From contig JAGNKX010000013.1 in NCBI GenBank assembly GCA_017999915.1, forward strand, positions 62,001-126,000: a stretch of DNA of 64,000 bases, given 5' to 3'. Positions 4,202-26,830 of this stretch are shown piece by piece (position 1 is the first letter of the stretch; each line of letters opens with the position of its first letter). The translations under genes and the position numbers were made by a program. The notes under the pieces were generated by a model, which saw only the letters and a list, made by a program, of their open reading frames with translations, was not told where the DNA came from and searched no databases. The DNA comes from Spirochaetota bacterium (lineage in GTDB: Bacteria > Spirochaetota > UBA4802 > UBA5550).

Positions 4202-6190
4202 TTAATTACTGCTGTTGCAGTCTCCGTCAGAGCCGGGATTGCCCGAGGAAGCGCCCCCCGTGCCCCCTGAGCCCATTGCCACCCGTGACAAGGTTACGTT
4301 GGCCATTGACAAACCGCTTTTATATATTCCGAACGATGGGCCGCCTGCGCCGCCTCCGCCGTGACCGCCGTTCCCTCCATGGCCCCCGGCGCCGCCGCTG
4401 CCGCCCGCGCCGATCTCGTCTGTGGCATGACTTGCGCCGCTCCCGCCGGAGCCGCCGGCCGCGCCGGAACCGCCGGTGCCGCCCCTGCCTCCATTGCCGC
4501 CATTCCCGCTGGAGATATCGCAGTATGAAGCCGTTATGACCGAATTAATTAATAAAAATCCAAAGGAAGCCCCGCCGCCGTTGCCGCCGGTGCCGCCGGT
4601 GCCAAGGCCGCCGCCACCCCCACCGCCGCCGCCGCCGTTGCCGCCGCCGTTAACGACAAGGCCGCCGTATTGGCCGCCGCCGCCGCCGCCGCCCCCGCCG
4701 CCGCAGCCGCCTTCACCGTCTGTTCCGGCGGTGCCATTCGATGAAACCCAGAGATTGCTGACCAGTGAACCGGATATCCCCGCCGGGCCGTTTGTCCCGC
4801 TGTATCCGTTCAATCCCGCGGTACCGTAATCTCCTTGTGTGCCGGGACGTCCTCTGAGACCTCCGGAGCCTCCCTGTGTTATCGATATCCCGTTTTTCAG
4901 TCCGTATTGACCGTCCTCGCCGTTCTGGCCCCGGCTGTACGCATCGTATATGCCATTGCCGCCCCTGCCGCCGCTGTTCCCGTTATAGCCGGTACCTCCG
5001 CTGCCTCCGGCTCCGCCTTCACCGTCTTCATCCCCGTTTTGGCCGTTGCCTCCGGCTCCGCCGGTCTGGCCATTGGCGCCGTCCGTTCCAGCCAGTCCCG
5101 GTGCCCCGTTGCCCGCTGTGATTATGCAATCATTGAACACGACATTGCTGCTTATCAGGCGTACTGCATAGGAGCCTCCGCCCGCCGCTGTGGCATCGTC
5201 GCTGGTTATAGAGAGTCCGTCGATGACAAGATTGTTCACGCCGTTGCCATCTACGGCGACGGTACTTCCCTGTATGGATGTCTGGAACGTTGTTGTATTC
5301 CTTTCCCACGTGGTATGGAGAAAGCCGCCGTAAATGCTCACGCCATTCGCCAGGGCCAGGCTTTCCCCGTAGTCGCCGTTGCCCACATACACGTCGCATC
5401 CCGCCGCCAGTGCGGCGGCAATGCCCGCCTGGATCGTCTGTTTCGGGGCCGTCCGTGTCTTACCGTCGTTGGCGATGTCGTCGCCGGTGGTCGATACATA
5501 TATGCCGGCCCCGGCCTTTTTCATGACAAATATATACACCCGGTCGGCCAGGCTGTTGCCAGATCCGTCATTCACGGTAAGGTCATAGACGATGGTGCAG
5601 ACTTCCGAGGGGGCGGCAAAGGTTGGATTGGCGCCGCTGAGGGTCCCGGCGCCGACGGCGGGACCGCTGATCTGGGTCCAGGTGTAGGTGAGAGTATCGC
5701 CTTCGGGATCGGCGCTGCCGCTCCCGTCCAGCGTCACGATGTCGCCAAAACCTACTTCCTGATCCGGCCCGGCGTTGGCCGTGGCACCGGTATTATCCGC
5801 AACGTATACGGTCACCAGGTCAGACGCTGTGCGTGAACCGTCGCTCACGGTGACCATGATCTCGTAGGTCCCGGCGGTGTCAAAGGTCAATGTGGTTTTA
5901 ACCTTAGTGGAGTCGGAAAAAGAGGCTGCGCTTCCAGCCGGCCGGTGGACTATTTCCCATGAAAAGGTGAGGTTCTTCCCTTCGGGGTCGAAGCTTTTGG
6001 ATCCGTCCAGTTCGACGCTCCCGGTATAGAGATAAACGTTTTTATCTGCCCCGGCTTTTGCGACCGGCAGCTGGTTGATCGACATGACGGGCCCCTGCAG
6101 CAATCCCTGCTTCTTCTCCTCGCCGCATTGGACCAGGATCCCGCAGGCCACGACGGCCGCGATCACTATGAGCTTATTGCGGTATTTCAT
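4202..6190 (-). CDS. PKD / Gly-rich (PGRS-like) surface lipoprotein, first of three
   Basis: 662 aa from the ATG at 6190, which has an AGGA about nine bases upstream. An in-frame ATG at 6217 adds nine non-hydrophobic residues and is less likely. The leader (KLIVIAAVVACGILVQC, then GEEKK) gives a plausible lipobox LVQC. Two PKD domains (KAGADKNVYLYTG and NAGPDQEVGFGD) are followed by a DUF1565-like stretch (GIYVSTTGDDI, KQTIQAGI, SIYGGF). Gly-rich blocks are interleaved with strand segments VRLISSNVVFNDCIITAGN and FLLINSVITASYCDISSGN. The architecture is the same as the two downstream genes, but the Gly-rich inserts differ in length and sequence, as expected for rapidly evolving repeats. Function unknown; an extracellular matrix or adhesion role is inference. 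Confidence 0.88.
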   Translation of the reverse strand: MKYRNKLIVIAAVVACGILVQCGEEKKQGLLQGPVMSINQLPVAKAGADKNVYLYTGSVELDGSKSFDPEGKNLTFSWEIVHRPAGSAASFSDSTKVKTTLTFDTAGTYEIMVTVSDGSRTASDLVTVYVADNTGATANAGPDQEVGFGDIVTLDGSGSADPEGDTLTYTWTQISGPAVGAGTLSGANPTFAAPSEVCTIVYDLTVNDGSGNSLADRVYIFVMKKAGAGIYVSTTGDDIANDGKTRTAPKQTIQAGIAAALAAGCDVYVGNGDYGESLALANGVSIYGGFLHTTWERNTTTFQTSIQGSTVAVDGNGVNNLVIDGLSITSDDATAAGGGSYAVRLISSNVVFNDCIITAGNGAPGLAGTDGANGQTGGAGGNGQNGDEDGEGGAGGSGGTGYNGNSGGRGGNGIYDAYSRGQNGEDGQYGLKNGISITQGGSGGLRGRPGTQGDYGTAGLNGYSGTNGPAGISGSLVSNLWVSSNGTAGTDGEGGCGGGGGGGGGGQYGGLVVNGGGNGGGGGGGGGGLGTGGTGGNGGGASFGFLLINSVITASYCDISSGNGGNGGRGGTGGSGAAGGSGGSGASHATDEIGAGGSGGAGGHGGNGGHGGGGAGGPSFGIYKSGLSMANVTLSRVAMGSGGTGGASSGNPGSDGDCNSSN

Positions 6191-14203: not shown

Positions 14204-14632
14204 TTACTTTATCACGGCAAATGAAAAACTACTAGTTGTCGCGGCTCCAGTATTATTGTATGTTCGAAATTCGATGTAACTACCATCATCGGCTGGGAAA
14301 TATACTATCAAAGAAGGTGTGAACAGGCTTTGAATTTGTGCAATAACAACCGTCTCCCGGTTTAGAGTTCTCAAAGATCCGGTCCATCTTATTGTGTAGC
14401 TACCGGTTGCGGCATATGTACAGGTATAATTACCCGATCCGCCTCGAATAGTCCCGTCAAAACTGATATATCCCCACGCAACCGTTTCACCGGAAGTATG
14501 GGGAAGTAACGATACAAGCAACAGGTCATTCGTTTTTTTATCAACTTCTTCCTTCGTGTATGTGTCACAATTCGCATTGAAGAAAACGGCAAGTATTGTA
14601 ATGCTGAATAAAACAAGTATTCTTTTTTTCAT
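14204..14632 (-). CDS. Small putative lipoprotein of unknown function
   Basis: 142 aa. A Lys-rich start and hydrophobic leader (ILVLFSITILAVFF) end at NANC, a plausible spirochaetal lipobox. The mature part is beta-rich (SGNYTCTYAATGSYTIRW, LIVYFPADDGSYIEF) and resembles a compact extracellular beta-sandwich, but I cannot name the family. The codon use is markedly more AT-rich than in neighbouring genes, which may signal acquisition. The ribosome site is CAGGGG. It lies 14 bp upstream of the SMR gene. Confidence 0.65.
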   Translation of the reverse strand: MKKRILVLFSITILAVFFNANCDTYTKEEVDKKTNDLLLVSLLPHTSGETVAWGYISFDGTIRGGSGNYTCTYAATGSYTIRWTGSLRTLNRETVVIAQIQSLFTPSLIVYFPADDGSYIEFRTYNNTGAATTSSFSFAVIK

Positions 14633-14791
14633 AAAAATCCCCTGTGAGTATTATTTGTCTCTATCTCTATATTGATAAATTTTCAAGAGATATTGAATTG
14701 CGTTAATTGATATTTCATCGTTATATGCCCCTGCTTTTTTGCTTGTCACGGGGGCTCGGTTGTGCCATAATTATTTTAGATAATAGGCGGT

Positions 14792-14818
14792 TGTCCCATG
14801 TTCCCGTACTGAATGCAT
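14792..14818. repeat. 27-bp direct repeat, left copy
   Basis: Begins TGTCCCATGTTCC and ends GAATGCAT. It matches 17254-17280 at 25 of 27 positions in the same orientation; the two copies bracket the Crp, small membrane, SDR and HXXEE genes. Upstream sequences of the copies are also loosely similar. Confidence 0.7.
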
Positions 14819-14831
14819 ATCACTTTGTCGG

Positions 14832-15434
14832 ATGTTGACATATATGGCAATGGATTACCTTCATAAATTGGTCGAATCGATGAATTTCCCGGATAATATT
14901 CCCGCGGAGGAGATTGAAGCAGTCATTAAACGGAGAAGGACTGTACGACTGAACAAAAACGAGTTCTTTTTGAAAGCCGGGGAGGTTCCGCGGCATATCG
15001 GGTATGTGGTTGCCGGCCTCATGAGACTGTATTACATCAATACCGACGGCGTGGAAATCACCAAGCATTTTTGCATGGAGAACACGCTGGCGATTTCCTA
15101 CAGCGCCTTCCTGCTGAGGGAAGGATCGAGTTTCTATATCCAGGCGCTGGAAGATACCGAGCTGTATGTCTTCGACTACGATACGTACCGCGACCTGCTG
15201 GCCGGCCACGCATGCTGGCAGTCGGTGGCGAAAAAATTATCCGACTTGCTGTTTATCATCAAGGAGAAGAGGGAAGCGGAGCTTTTGCTGTGCAATGCGC
15301 AGGAGCGGTATGGACGATTCCTGAAAGACTACCCCAATCTTGAGAAAAGGCTGAACCAGTACCACATCGCATCGTACCTGGGCATTACCCCTGAATCGCT
15401 GAGCAGGATCCGGGCGAATTTCAGGGAATCTTAA
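14832..15434 (+). CDS. Crp/Fnr-family transcriptional regulator
   Basis: 200 aa. Residues about 25-125 form a cyclic-nucleotide-binding-type beta barrel (FFLKAGEVPRHIGYVVAGLM, FYIQALEDTELYVFD). The C-terminus holds a short winged helix with recognition helix HIASYLGITPESLSRIR. It has no Cys cluster like that of Fnr, and the phosphate-binding cassette of true Crp is not obvious, so the ligand is unknown. It heads a same-strand set (small membrane protein, SDR, HXXEE) and probably regulates it. Three nearby in-frame ATGs (14832, 14844, 14850) make the exact start uncertain. Confidence 0.82.
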   Translation: MLTYMAMDYLHKLVESMNFPDNIPAEEIEAVIKRRRTVRLNKNEFFLKAGEVPRHIGYVVAGLMRLYYINTDGVEITKHFCMENTLAISYSAFLLREGSSFYIQALEDTELYVFDYDTYRDLLAGHACWQSVAKKLSDLLFIIKEKREAELLLCNAQERYGRFLKDYPNLEKRLNQYHIASYLGITPESLSRIRANFRES

Positions 15435-15502
15435 CATACATCAATTACCGCATCGGAATCCTCCGGTATATTGAATTCATACAAAACTACCGGAGGAGAG
15501 TC

Positions 15503-15733
15503 ATGGAACACACATTTTTATCATCCGCAAAGATCGCCTGCATCGGCGGTATCGCAAGCTTCGCCGTGTCGGCGGCGCTTAACTATTTAATAATTCCCAT
15601 GCCCCTTTCGATTCTTGATAATTCCATAAATCACGGTATCGGAGGATTTTTCTGCGGCTTCATCTCGGCCCTCGTGGGCGTACTGATGTTCGCACGCCGG
15701 CACGGGCGAGGAACCATGATCGAACGATCATGA
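15503..15733 (+). CDS. Small hypothetical membrane protein
   Basis: 76 aa with a strong ribosome site (CCGGAGGAGAGTC). Two hydrophobic segments (IGGIASFAVSAALNYLI and GGFFCGFISALVGVLMF) suggest a hairpin in the inner membrane with a basic C-terminus. No family recognised. It lies between the Crp-type regulator and the SDR gene, both on the same strand, 29 bp before the latter, so co-transcription is likely. Confidence 0.6.
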   Translation: MEHTFLSSAKIACIGGIASFAVSAALNYLIIPMPLSILDNSINHGIGGFFCGFISALVGVLMFARRHGRGTMIERS

Positions 15734-15762
15734 TCATCACCGACGTATAGAGGAGTTTTGCC

Positions 15763-16503
15763 ATGGAGATATCGGGAAGTACGATCGTCATAACCGGAGC
15801 GTCGCGGGGGCTCGGAAGGGAGATGGCCCTGCGCCTGAGCAGGGCTGGTGCGCGGGTCATCCTTGTCGCGCGCTCGGAGGAATCGCTGCAATCGGCGCAG
15901 AGGACCGTTTCGGACATTGCCGGATACTCGCCCGATGCGTTCCCGTGCGATATCACCGACGAGTGGGCCGTCGCGGGCATCGCGCGGACAATCGGCGCAA
16001 CATATCGACGCGTCGATGCGCTTATCAACAACGCCGGCATAGGCATCCTTAAACCGGTTTCTGAAATGAGCGGCGATGAGATGCGAAGACACTTCGAGGT
16101 GAACCTCTTCGGCGCGTTTTACTGCACCAGGGCGATGCTGCCGCTCATGAAGGGCGGAAAAGAGGGATACGTCCTCAATATCGGGTCGCTTCTCGGCGAG
16201 ATGTCCTTTGCCGAAAGCGGCGTATACTCGGCCACGAAGTTCGCCCTGGCGGGTTTCACGGAAGGGCTCCGCCTCGAGCTGAAAAAGCACGGTATACAGG
16301 TGGGGCTTCTTCTTCCCGGCCCCATGAATACGTCGTTCCATGAAAACGTGGGAGGGCATGCGCCCGATGTTCCCCGTTTCATCACTCTCGATCCGGCCAG
16401 GGTTGCGGTTATCGCGGAGATGATGATCAGGAAAAGAGTATCCAGAGTGCATGCATACCGATGGATTCTTTACGCAATGAAGTTAAAGCGATTTTTGCGC
16501 TGA
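15763..16503 (+). CDS. Short-chain dehydrogenase/reductase (SDR)
   Basis: 246 aa, classical SDR length. The N-terminal NAD(P)-binding motif TGASRGLG, the NNAG motif, a Ser in the IGSLLG strand and the catalytic YSATK tetrad segment are all present, so the enzyme should be active. An Arg soon after the first strand (ARSEE) favours NADP(H). The substrate is not evident. It starts after GAGGAGTTTTGCC and lies in the block controlled by the adjacent Crp-type gene, with a HXXEE membrane gene 41 bp downstream. Confidence 0.88.
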   Translation: MEISGSTIVITGASRGLGREMALRLSRAGARVILVARSEESLQSAQRTVSDIAGYSPDAFPCDITDEWAVAGIARTIGATYRRVDALINNAGIGILKPVSEMSGDEMRRHFEVNLFGAFYCTRAMLPLMKGGKEGYVLNIGSLLGEMSFAESGVYSATKFALAGFTEGLRLELKKHGIQVGLLLPGPMNTSFHENVGGHAPDVPRFITLDPARVAVIAEMMIRKRVSRVHAYRWILYAMKLKRFLR

Positions 16504-16544
16504 GTGGCCCGTGAAGAAATTTATCTTTCAGAAGGAGGAATACC

Positions 16545-17114
16545 GTGAGCTATGTAATGACAATGATTGCATGCGTGAGCCTGAGTGAATCGTTATGGAT
16601 TTTTTACCTGTTTTTCGTTATCCATGAAATCGAGGAATGGAACATCGCACGCTTTGAAAAGAGGGTTTTTGCGGGACTGCCGGCGACGCACAACGATCGA
16701 AACGCCCGGGCCTGGATCGGTGTCGTCTGCATGATCGGTTTTGCCTGGTGCGCCGCGGCGACACTGCCGTCAAGTCCGCGCGTTGCGGCATACATCATCC
16801 TTCCCGCGATCGCGTTCTCCGCCGCGAACGCGCTGCAGCATGTATACTGGTCCCTGCGGTTCAGATCAGTCGCGCCCGGCCTGGTGAGCGCCGTTGTCCT
16901 CATGCTGCCATCAACAGCATACCTTACGTTTCTTATCATCGGCTACGGCCTTGTTTCGCCGTGGTACGCGGCCGGGTTGTCGGTACTTGCCCTCATGATG
17001 CTTGCCGGTACGGTGAAAAGCGGGGATTCGGCGCCTTCGATCATTCCCGCCATCTACGGGATCGGCGACCGGGCGTCAAAACTCGCGCATAGCATTAAAA
17101 TGTTAACAAGATGA
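16545..17114 (+). CDS. HXXEE-motif membrane protein
   Basis: 189 aa from a GTG with AAGGAGG upstream. The motif HEIEEW in the first hydrophobic region and the later NALQHVYWSLRF segment are the H-x-x-E-E and N-x-x-x-H signatures of the HXXEE family, polytopic membrane proteins of unknown function thought to have a metal or catalytic site in the membrane. About five or six hydrophobic segments are visible. It ends the Crp/SDR block and lies just before the right copy of the 27-bp repeat. Confidence 0.72.
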   Translation: MSYVMTMIACVSLSESLWIFYLFFVIHEIEEWNIARFEKRVFAGLPATHNDRNARAWIGVVCMIGFAWCAAATLPSSPRVAAYIILPAIAFSAANALQHVYWSLRFRSVAPGLVSAVVLMLPSTAYLTFLIIGYGLVSPWYAAGLSVLALMMLAGTVKSGDSAPSIIPAIYGIGDRASKLAHSIKMLTR

Positions 17115-17253
17115 ATGGATCTATTATACTACATAGAGGAGTATCAATGAATTCATGGGGAAGAGTTGAGTTTATCGACTAAAATTTCAAGGCCCCTGCC
17201 CAGAGCGTTTCCTGTTGACAGGGGACCGGAATTGCTTCAAGTTAAGGGCCGTA

Positions 17254-17280
17254 TGTCCCATGTTCCTGTACTGAATTCAT
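17254..17280. repeat. 27-bp direct repeat, right copy
   Basis: Begins TGTCCCATGTTCC and ends GAATTCAT; differs from 14792-14818 at two positions. It lies between the HXXEE gene and the stop of the minus-strand barrel gene. Confidence 0.7.
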
Positions 17281-17286
17281 CGCACG

Positions 17287-17847
17287 TTACTGGATGTCGG
17301 AACTATATGTATCACCTCCTACCCTGAACATACATCCAATGGTGGTCATTACATCTACTCCATACCCGCCGGCATTATTGGCGTATCCAAAGACAAAACG
17401 GGGAGCAAGGGTGATCGACAGAGTGAAAACATCTCCACAATGAATATTAAGGCCACAGGCAAAGCCAAGGGCTGCGTAAAGCCCCTCAACGCGCCATATC
17501 ATTCCCCCTATCGTGAGTTGAGGTCCCAGCCAGAAACGGACGACTTTATTTCGTACAACTCCGAATCCGAAATAATGGACCGAGTTCATTCTGAAGCAAG
17601 TACGCTTCTCATCATCCGTATAATGGACACTTAAATCCAGACGGTAGTTAAAAAGCCTGTCTGCGGCGAGATTTGTGTCCAGGGCAAAACCCCCGCCTAA
17701 TGCCATGTGGGCATAGGCCTTGCCTCCCCAGTTTACTTCTCCACCGTCAAAGGCCCCAAAGAAGCCGAGACCATAGGCGTAGAGCGAAGATGTGAAAAGC
17801 ATAATAAGCAAGGGTACTGCCAGGACAATGGCAAACTTATTTTTCAT
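17287..17847 (-). CDS. Predicted outer-membrane protein, paralogue of 6272-7036
   Basis: 186 aa with a GGAGGATGCCTG site before the ATG. The signal peptide (IVLAVPLLIMLF, ending SLYA) is followed by YGLGFFGAFDGGEV and then alternating amphipathic strands (HMALGGGFALDTNL, FNYRLDLSVHY, HYFGFGVVRNKVVRFWLG) that end in a C-terminal strand region (VDVMTTIGCMFRVGG). Shared landmarks with the protein at 6272-7036 are SLYAYGLG, the G-G-F/L-x-x-D-T strand and NYRL. It is 68 residues shorter and lacks the charged tail. Outer-membrane location is inferred from composition. Confidence 0.65.
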   Translation of the reverse strand: MKNKFAIVLAVPLLIMLFTSSLYAYGLGFFGAFDGGEVNWGGKAYAHMALGGGFALDTNLAADRLFNYRLDLSVHYTDDEKRTCFRMNSVHYFGFGVVRNKVVRFWLGPQLTIGGMIWRVEGLYAALGFACGLNIHCGDVFTLSITLAPRFVFGYANNAGGYGVDVMTTIGCMFRVGGDTYSSDIQ

Positions 17848-18245
17848 CAGGCATCCTCCAATTTATTTTATGAGTTGGTTGATAATATTTCTGCAAACTA
17901 TGATAAAAAACGGCATATACCTGTACCAGGGGCGCCGCGGAACTCTCCCTGGGAGTGTAGGGAGGGTTAGCCCGGTACCGGAGGCGCCGCCGAACCACGT
18001 GACATTGATATTATTCACGATGCTATATAAAAAAATATTTTTGTATATCTTTTACTCATTACTAATGAATAAATCAATATAACAACCGATAACAATCGGT
18101 CCCAGTGTTGCTCTGACCCCGATTTTAACCGATAACAATCGGTCCTATGGCAGCTTTTACCGATAACAATCGGTTTTACGGCTGCTCTGACCCCGGAAGT
18201 CACCGATAACTATCAGTCCCCAGGCTTGTTCGGACCTTCCACGCC
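17848..18245. other. Intergenic gap carrying a palindrome array
   Basis: No gene seen. A GC-rich, self-complementary stretch lies at about 17920-17995 (ACTCTCCCTGGGAGTGTAGG and flanks), then an AT-rich segment, then the four-copy palindrome array listed separately at 18085-18217. Confidence 0.5.
18085..18217. repeat. Array of four 16-bp palindromes
   Basis: ACCGATAACAATCGGT occurs exactly at 18085-18100, 18128-18143 and 18159-18174, and as ACCGATAACTATCAGT at 18202-18217. Start-to-start distances are 43, 31 and 43 bp. The two longer spacers both contain GCTCTGACCCCG, giving a two-unit higher-order repeat. Each palindrome can form a 6-bp stem with a 4-nt loop. Possible roles are operator sites, a REP-like element or an RNA stability element. 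Confidence 0.85.
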
Positions 18246-26361: not shown

Positions 26362-26460
26362 TAATAGCGGTAAATATCATTTAAACATGCCTTCTTCAGT
26401 CCCTGGGTTTGTAATTCGAGATATTTATTTGTCATAAACTTGTTTCTGTATAGATATTAA

Positions 26461-26830
26461 GGGTCAGAGCCCCTTAAAAGGTCCCCGCAAAGGTCGGAAC
26501 TCGCGACGATTATCGTCGAAAACAGTGACAGCTTCAGGATGAAGGGTCAGAGCCCCTTAGGAGCCCCCCGCAAAGGTCGGAACTCGCGATGATTATCGTC
26601 GAAAACAGTGACAGCTTCAGGATGAAGGGTCAGAGCCCTTTAGGAGCCCCCCGCAAAGGTCGGAACTCGCGATGATTATCGTCGAAAACAGTGACAGCTT
26701 CAGGATGAAGGGTCAGAGCCCTTTAGGAGCCCCCCCGCAAAAGATCGAAAATCGCGAAGATTGTCGCCGAAATCAGTATCAGCCTCGGGGTTAAGGGGCG
26801 AAGCCCCTTAGGAGTCCCCCCGCAGGGGTT
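26461..26830. repeat. Tandem array of 83-bp units
   Basis: Units start with GGGTCAGAGCCCCTT or a close variant at 26461, 26544, 26627 and 26710 (period 83), with a diverged fifth unit beginning near 26796. The first three units are nearly identical. Each contains GCGACGATTATCGTCGAA or a one-base variant; in unit 1 CGACGATTATCGTCG is a perfect palindrome (26504-26518). The last unit has an AAGGGGCGAAGCCCCTT hairpin. Confidence 0.88.

Follow-up and report, generated by a model that had tools for sequence, protein, structure and literature searches.

A 64,000-nt stretch of a Spirochaetota genome (here called the window) contains two 27-bp direct repeats with four genes between them. An earlier note on this DNA proposed that the four-gene block is a movable or recently inserted unit, or that the repeats are paired regulatory sites. 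We asked what the repeats are and whether they have anything to do with the genes that they bracket.

The repeat pair and the unit that contains it

The repeats are as the earlier note described them: the copies agree at 25 of 27 positions, share their orientation, and enclose exactly four genes on one strand, all of them plus-strand ORFs (Table 1). Local alignment of their surroundings scored 53, compared to a maximum of 31 in 500 dinucleotide-preserving shuffle pairs. A search of the 5.46-Mb genome for the 23-nt core, allowing up to 3 mismatches, found the two window sites and no others; a reversed control pattern gave 0 matches. Searches with the surroundings of each copy gave further significant matches that ended just to the left of the 27-mer. 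The 27-mer is not a stand-alone repeat; at both places it forms the right half of a discrete unit of ~115 to 125 nt, and this accounts for the loosely similar sequence that had been noticed upstream of both repeats.

Table 1. Features at the bracketed genes, in window positions
Feature	Position	Strand	Basis and remarks
Copy 1 of the unit, probable IS91-like right end, long-middle subtype	14711..14833	+	R1 match 14711-14805, E 2e-12; R2 match 14723-14832, E 1.6e-14; alignment
Promoter-like site in copy 1, outward toward crp	14743..14771	+	TTGTCA-N17-CATAAT, TG before second hexamer; consensus scan, 10/12
27-bp repeat core, copy 1	14792..14818	+	Right half of unit; 25/27 with copy 2
Crp/Fnr-type regulator (crp)	14847..15434	+	ORF opens at 14832; start at 14847 fits the L033 homologue; PF00027 (cNMP_binding), E 1.7e-9; PF13545, E 4.5e-5, below cut-off
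Likely operator of the Crp-type protein, TTAACATACATCAA, overlapping the crp stop codon	15431..15444	+	Also found 3′ of crp in L146 and L147
76-aa membrane-like protein, no Pfam family	15503..15733	+	Homologues between crp and SDR in L033, L146, L147
Short-chain dehydrogenase/reductase (SDR)	15763..16503	+	PF00106 (adh_short), E 5e-54
HXXEE protein	16545..17114	+	PF13787, E 2e-11
Copy 2 of the unit, probable IS91-like right end, short-middle subtype	17180..17295	+	R2 match 17182-17295, E 6.7e-16; alignment
27-bp repeat core, copy 2	17254..17280	+	Right half of unit; 25/27 with copy 1
Convergent ORF, no Pfam family, last codons inside copy 2	17287..17847	-	ORF list, Pfam search

We built two sequence models of the unit, R1 from nine copies and R2, covering the full unit, from 30. 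R1 matched all six genomes of the genus at an E value of ≤5, with a weak result in G002 (best match, 0.0099). With R2 (E ≤ 0.01, up to 150 candidates scored per genome), the genome of the window had 30 matches and the five congeners, G001 to G005, had 27, 5, 32, 78, and 18. Beyond the genus, the same search found 4 matches in G010, 7 in G011, 11 in G012, and 1 in G017, and none in the remaining 10 of 20 family genomes. Hence, looking for more copies, as the earlier note had suggested, yields none for the core at up to 3 mismatches and many for the unit.

The left edge of the unit is sharp, with 0.05 bits per site outside and 1.07 inside (57 copies). At the right edge, conservation fades after TTTCCTTGAT (43 copies). 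No conserved fold was detected, with 0 consensus base pairs in 30 copies when pairing was considered within units only. A structured RNA and an integron attC site were both rejected on this count, the folded structure with paired end boxes that characterizes attC being absent.

The right halves of the two window copies are 78% identical, ranking 7th of 253 same-genome pairs. Their left halves, which are of different subtypes, are 44% identical, compared to a mean of 63% for far same-genome pairs. This difference between the halves probably explains why the left half escaped notice at first. It also rules out a simple duplication of one window copy into the other. Copy 1 ends ~13 nt upstream of the likely crp start, and copy 2 overlaps the final codons of the convergent ORF. 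DNA within that ORF (17500-17590) has matches of 75 to 80% identity elsewhere in this genome (contig C4) and in G004 and G005.

The bracketed operon and its candidate regulatory sites

The DNA of the block had no match in any of the five congeners, two of which encode Crp-type proteins 45 to 46% identical to that of the window. A survey of 392 genomes from the phylum gave its best relatives of Crp in G177 (58% identical) and G099 (54%), which belong to the same order as the window's genome. Both carry all four block genes in the same order, with an HXXEE protein only 25 to 26% identical, and in both the unit was absent from the 10 kb read around the block. A Syntrophobacterales metagenome-assembled genome has the genes for Crp, the 76-aa protein, and SDR together (66, 51, and 55% identical, respectively); no match to HXXEE was found at that locus. 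Because the same-order block lacks the unit in G177 and G099, the block is independent of the repeats. Thus, the four genes occur without repeats in related genomes, and the unit, with its 30 matches in this genome, is widespread elsewhere. These two findings, the outcomes that the earlier note had named as refuting its reading, indicate that the repeats do not define the block. We conclude that the block is an ordinary operon, conserved and present in other genomes without repeats.

We scanned positions 14600 to 17400 for promoter-like sites and found 9, compared to 3.1 (standard deviation, 1.7) in shuffled sequence. The site in copy 1 was tied with one at 17103-17130 as the best of the nine, and the scan found none in copy 2. 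Since copy 1 lies directly before crp, its outward-facing promoter-like site may drive crp; that is, copy 1 may supply the crp promoter. Copy 2, which faces the convergent gene, is probably inert. Working outward promoters on the oriIS side of ISCR1 have been demonstrated by reporter assays (PMC6218425, in excerpt). As excerpted there, ISCR1 resembles the present case in having its ori side 3′ of the transposase and, as for copy 1, a promoter directed outward to the next gene; in contrast, the promoter here is a consensus match only, and the two systems are likened by description.

A different sequence is the better candidate for a regulatory site. The corresponding site in L033 is TTATCATACATCAA, and a perfect TTAACATAGGTTAA is found near the related crp genes of L148 and L149. 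Sites of the TTAACATACATCAA type are likely the operator of this Crp subfamily, and they are likelier than the repeats to be the regulatory site of the operon.

It is nevertheless conceivable that the Crp-type protein, or some other regulator, acts on the repeats as a pair of regulatory sites and so controls a promoter regulon, an explanation with which the promoter-like hexamers inside copy 1 are consistent. A downstream gene was called for 24 of 28 own-genome units, using a heuristic by which at least one gene, the GNAT ORF in L117/L150, was overlooked. Sixteen of these 24 genes are codirected with the unit, as expected of a promoter regulon; the other eight, including the gene facing copy 2, are in the opposite direction, although one of the eight is a miscall. 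The unit is missing from the related crp operons in L146, L147, and L033, which keep their own TTAACATA-like site after crp, and for this reason the repeat was also rejected as an autoregulatory site of crp. A regulatory role would, moreover, leave the linkage to transposases described below unexplained. We therefore consider it very unlikely that the repeats are regulatory sites, the second proposal of the earlier note.

Linkage of the unit to IS91-family transposases

Elements of the IS91 family move by rolling-circle transposition. They have no proper terminal inverted repeats; their left (ter) end carries a G-C-rich stem-loop, and their ori end lies 3′ of the transposase. At a contig end in G004, the unit comes after an ORF matching PF04986. 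A search for PF04986 across the genus gave seven matches. Four have a unit just 3′, two are at contig ends, and one belongs to another IS91 branch and has no unit. At one of the four linked loci, L140, the unit is weak and partial, and the PF04986 match is below the cut-off, with a stop inside. The transposase of L136 (sequence partly masked) is complete at 410 aa and matches NF033538 (148.7 bits; cut-off, 125), PF04986, and PF14319. As judged from these profiles, it is an IS91-family transposase of the Zn-binding, Y2 HUH type, so that such an enzyme is present in congeners. Its lineage is diverged, with 25 to 29% identity in the ten plasmid matches listed and <60% in all 2,741 records.

We compared the L136 transposase with all loci examined and found 14 distinct transposase 3′ ends of its lineage, 12 of them readable. 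Eleven of the 12 have a same-strand unit ~125 to 160 nt beyond the transposase (L136, L137, L114, the weak and partial L140, L121, L181, L176, L099, L171, L157, and L052); these 11 come from congeners, one other genus, and the genome of the window itself. L175 is the sole readable end without a unit. The 12 exclude L138 and L141 (contig ends), fragments that stop short of the C terminus, such as L156, and L139, which is of the other IS91 branch and has no unit. The proportion of 11 of 12 overstates the unbiased linkage rate, because several loci were fetched from the unit side; the set chosen independently of the unit consists of the seven PF04986 matches, four of them linked, and L052, also linked. 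L052 is from the other genus and was found via the Crp search. Its transposase is 52% identical, and the unit that follows it resembles, by eye, that genus's own subtype.

Further observations bear on the boundary between transposase and unit. In L114, L176, and L171, the region 3′ of the transposase is conserved right up to the unit. In the window's own genome, a C-terminal transposase remnant precedes a unit by ~125 to 130 nt (L157) and a 5′ remnant abuts a unit (L119/L162), whereas a fragment just after a unit (L156, residues 350 to 390) does not fit the pattern. At the other end, a stretch of the transposase start region is conserved in five loci, with a possible hairpin seen by eye only. 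Upstream of the L136 transposase in G001 (L136:1963-2144) is a pair of 24-bp inverted repeats ~135 nt apart, perhaps a separate miniature element.

Given this linkage pattern, the unit is best read as the 3′-terminal, ori-side right end of an IS91-family rolling-circle transposon, and the window repeats are probably its leftover pieces. The unit lies where the family has its ori end and may be the ori itself. Several points count against this reading. The fixed left edge requires a preferred stop site; copy 1 is without the usual left motif, AAGGCCCCTGTCC, in the alignment; the window's genome has 0 matches to PF04986; and no clean empty site was found, the corresponding interval in the sister genome G005 being filled with other genes. 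Insertion beside tetranucleotides of the CTTG/GTTC type is typical of the IS91 family. No such tetranucleotide stands out clearly near the right edge of the unit, where CTTG occurs in 9 of 43 copies and GTTC in 0 of 43. Tetranucleotide sets related to CTTG/GTTC are given for IS801 in the accessible part of PMC3189936.

Alternatively, the unit could be an independent miniature element or a favored landing site, with the IS91-like element tending to sit just upstream without owning it. The sharp left edge in 57 copies suggests that the unit acts as a separate module, and in L119 it abuts the 5′ remnant with the usual 3′ region absent between them. An independent unit is hard to reconcile with the orientation and nearly uniform distance seen at 11 of the 12 readable ends, with a 3′ region conserved up to the unit in three loci, and with a diverged transposase in another genus that is followed by what appears to be that genus's own subtype. 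We regard an independent unit as unlikely.

If the unit is an IS91-type right end, a transposase acting in trans would nick it, replication would run a short distance and halt at the AAATTT edge, and the short product would be inserted by one-ended transposition, as shown experimentally for IS801. The outcome would be transposase-free units left in gaps between genes, and repeated events near old copies would give head-to-tail units with genes in between. In the window, copy 1 would have landed directly before crp and copy 2 behind the HXXEE gene, facing the convergent gene. One-ended transposition of IS801 yielded right-end fragments of 229, 360, and 679 nt with fixed left ends (PMC3189936, in the text available). 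From that text, the units resemble the IS801 miniatures in being short and transposase-free, in representing the right end of an IS91-family element, and in having an internal left end that is fixed. Unlike those described there, they are ~115 to 125 nt long and number 30 matches in one genome (up to 150 candidates scored); they also differ in their diverged transposase, their head-to-tail order around genes, and the lack of any remaining PF04986 match in the window's genome.

Head-to-tail units and the history of the block

Among the 150 R2 matches listed, 53 pairs of neighboring units lie within 6 kb of each other, compared to ~8 expected at random places. Fifty of these 53 pairs are on the same strand and 3 on opposite strands (binomial P = 3e-12); for neighbors more than 6 kb apart on the same contig, again among the matches listed, 11 of 21 are on the same strand and 10 on opposite strands. 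Replichore strand bias was rejected as the cause on the basis of these distant pairs. Head-to-tail neighbors are a genus-wide pattern. Units within 6 kb of each other are also more alike than other same-genome pairs (67% versus 59% identity; permutation P = 0.0005; 64 copies from 41 loci). Nine genes that adjoin units or lie between them represent different families, including GNAT, two hydrolases, a methyltransferase, ankyrin, and DUF proteins. Among the units of L120 (positions 4221 to 5600; G001, contig C80), ORFs resemble, by eye, two toxin-antitoxin pairs.

The same-strand rule hints at serial one-ended transposition beside older copies, around genes. We raise, as a speculative and rather improbable extension, that an IS91-like transposase has made its own right end a serial gene-collecting system, in which units with outward promoters are inserted repeatedly downstream of older ones and form head-to-tail gene arrays resembling integrase-free cassettes equipped with promoters. 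Units in head-to-tail order around a single gene or a few genes would also be expected if the unit were an attC-like recombination site of an integron and the block a gene cassette. With no conserved fold in 30 copies, no inverted end motifs by eye, and an IS91-family transposase adjoining the unit, this is extremely improbable.

The first proposal of the earlier note, a movable or recently inserted block, stands in part: the repeats are most likely ends of a mobile, IS91-like element, but the block exists without them in G177 and G099. In the sister genome G005, a CoA transferase, a 208-aa protein, and SMR lie on one side and LRR and a kinase on the other. Insertion of the block is unreadable from this comparison, because the SMR-LRR interval of G005 holds other genes and SMR is cut short. 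Near the block, a 16-bp palindrome, ACCGATAACAATCGGT, occurs four times at 18085-18217 of the window, in one case with 2 mismatches; similar copies occur at the SMR gene break in G005 (L079, 4012-4160). Farther along, at 26459-26824, an 83-bp unit is repeated in tandem (4.4 copies, 90% matches).

The four genes and copy 2 could still form a movable unit, if rolling-circle transposition from the right end in copy 2 brought the block beside copy 1 or can circularise it between the copies. The direct orientation of the bracketing repeats is consistent with this, as are the same-strand rule for near but not distant neighbors among the matches listed, the lack of a match to the block DNA in the congeners, and the different content of the SMR-LRR interval in G005. 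In addition, an oriIS of ~100 bp is said to suffice for the movement of adjacent DNA (PMC13023784, in the part available). Against it are the same block without units in G177 and G099, the left halves of the copies, which are less alike than those of far same-genome pairs and argue against simple duplication, and the lack of a PF04986 match in the genome; furthermore, most natural IS801 fragments are judged to be rearrangements in the available text of PMC3189936. Movement of the block is possible, but we consider it doubtful. A precedent for the arrangement is that of the hly genes, which are bracketed by partial IS91 copies and at which deletions between repeats have been observed (PMC3214074, in part). 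As far as that text goes, the window is similar in having directly repeated partial IS91-family sequences around an operon, and differs in that its repeats are short and diverged.

We found no description of short IS91-type ends in head-to-tail arrays in the literature searched, in which few subscription journals were covered. The units described here represent a new lineage and, relative to known IS91-type right-end fragments, a variant with more copies and a head-to-tail order. For the window, the puzzling bracket is reduced to an ordinary operon and two relics that have an explanation. IS91-type rolling-circle elements, best known from plasmids and pathogens, are believed to spread genes by one-ended transposition. 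In this genus, which lies outside that setting, a genome can carry up to tens of short right-end units, and neighboring units follow a strong same-strand rule. If that rule reflects serial insertion, the genus would provide a natural data set on how rolling-circle ends collect and express genes.
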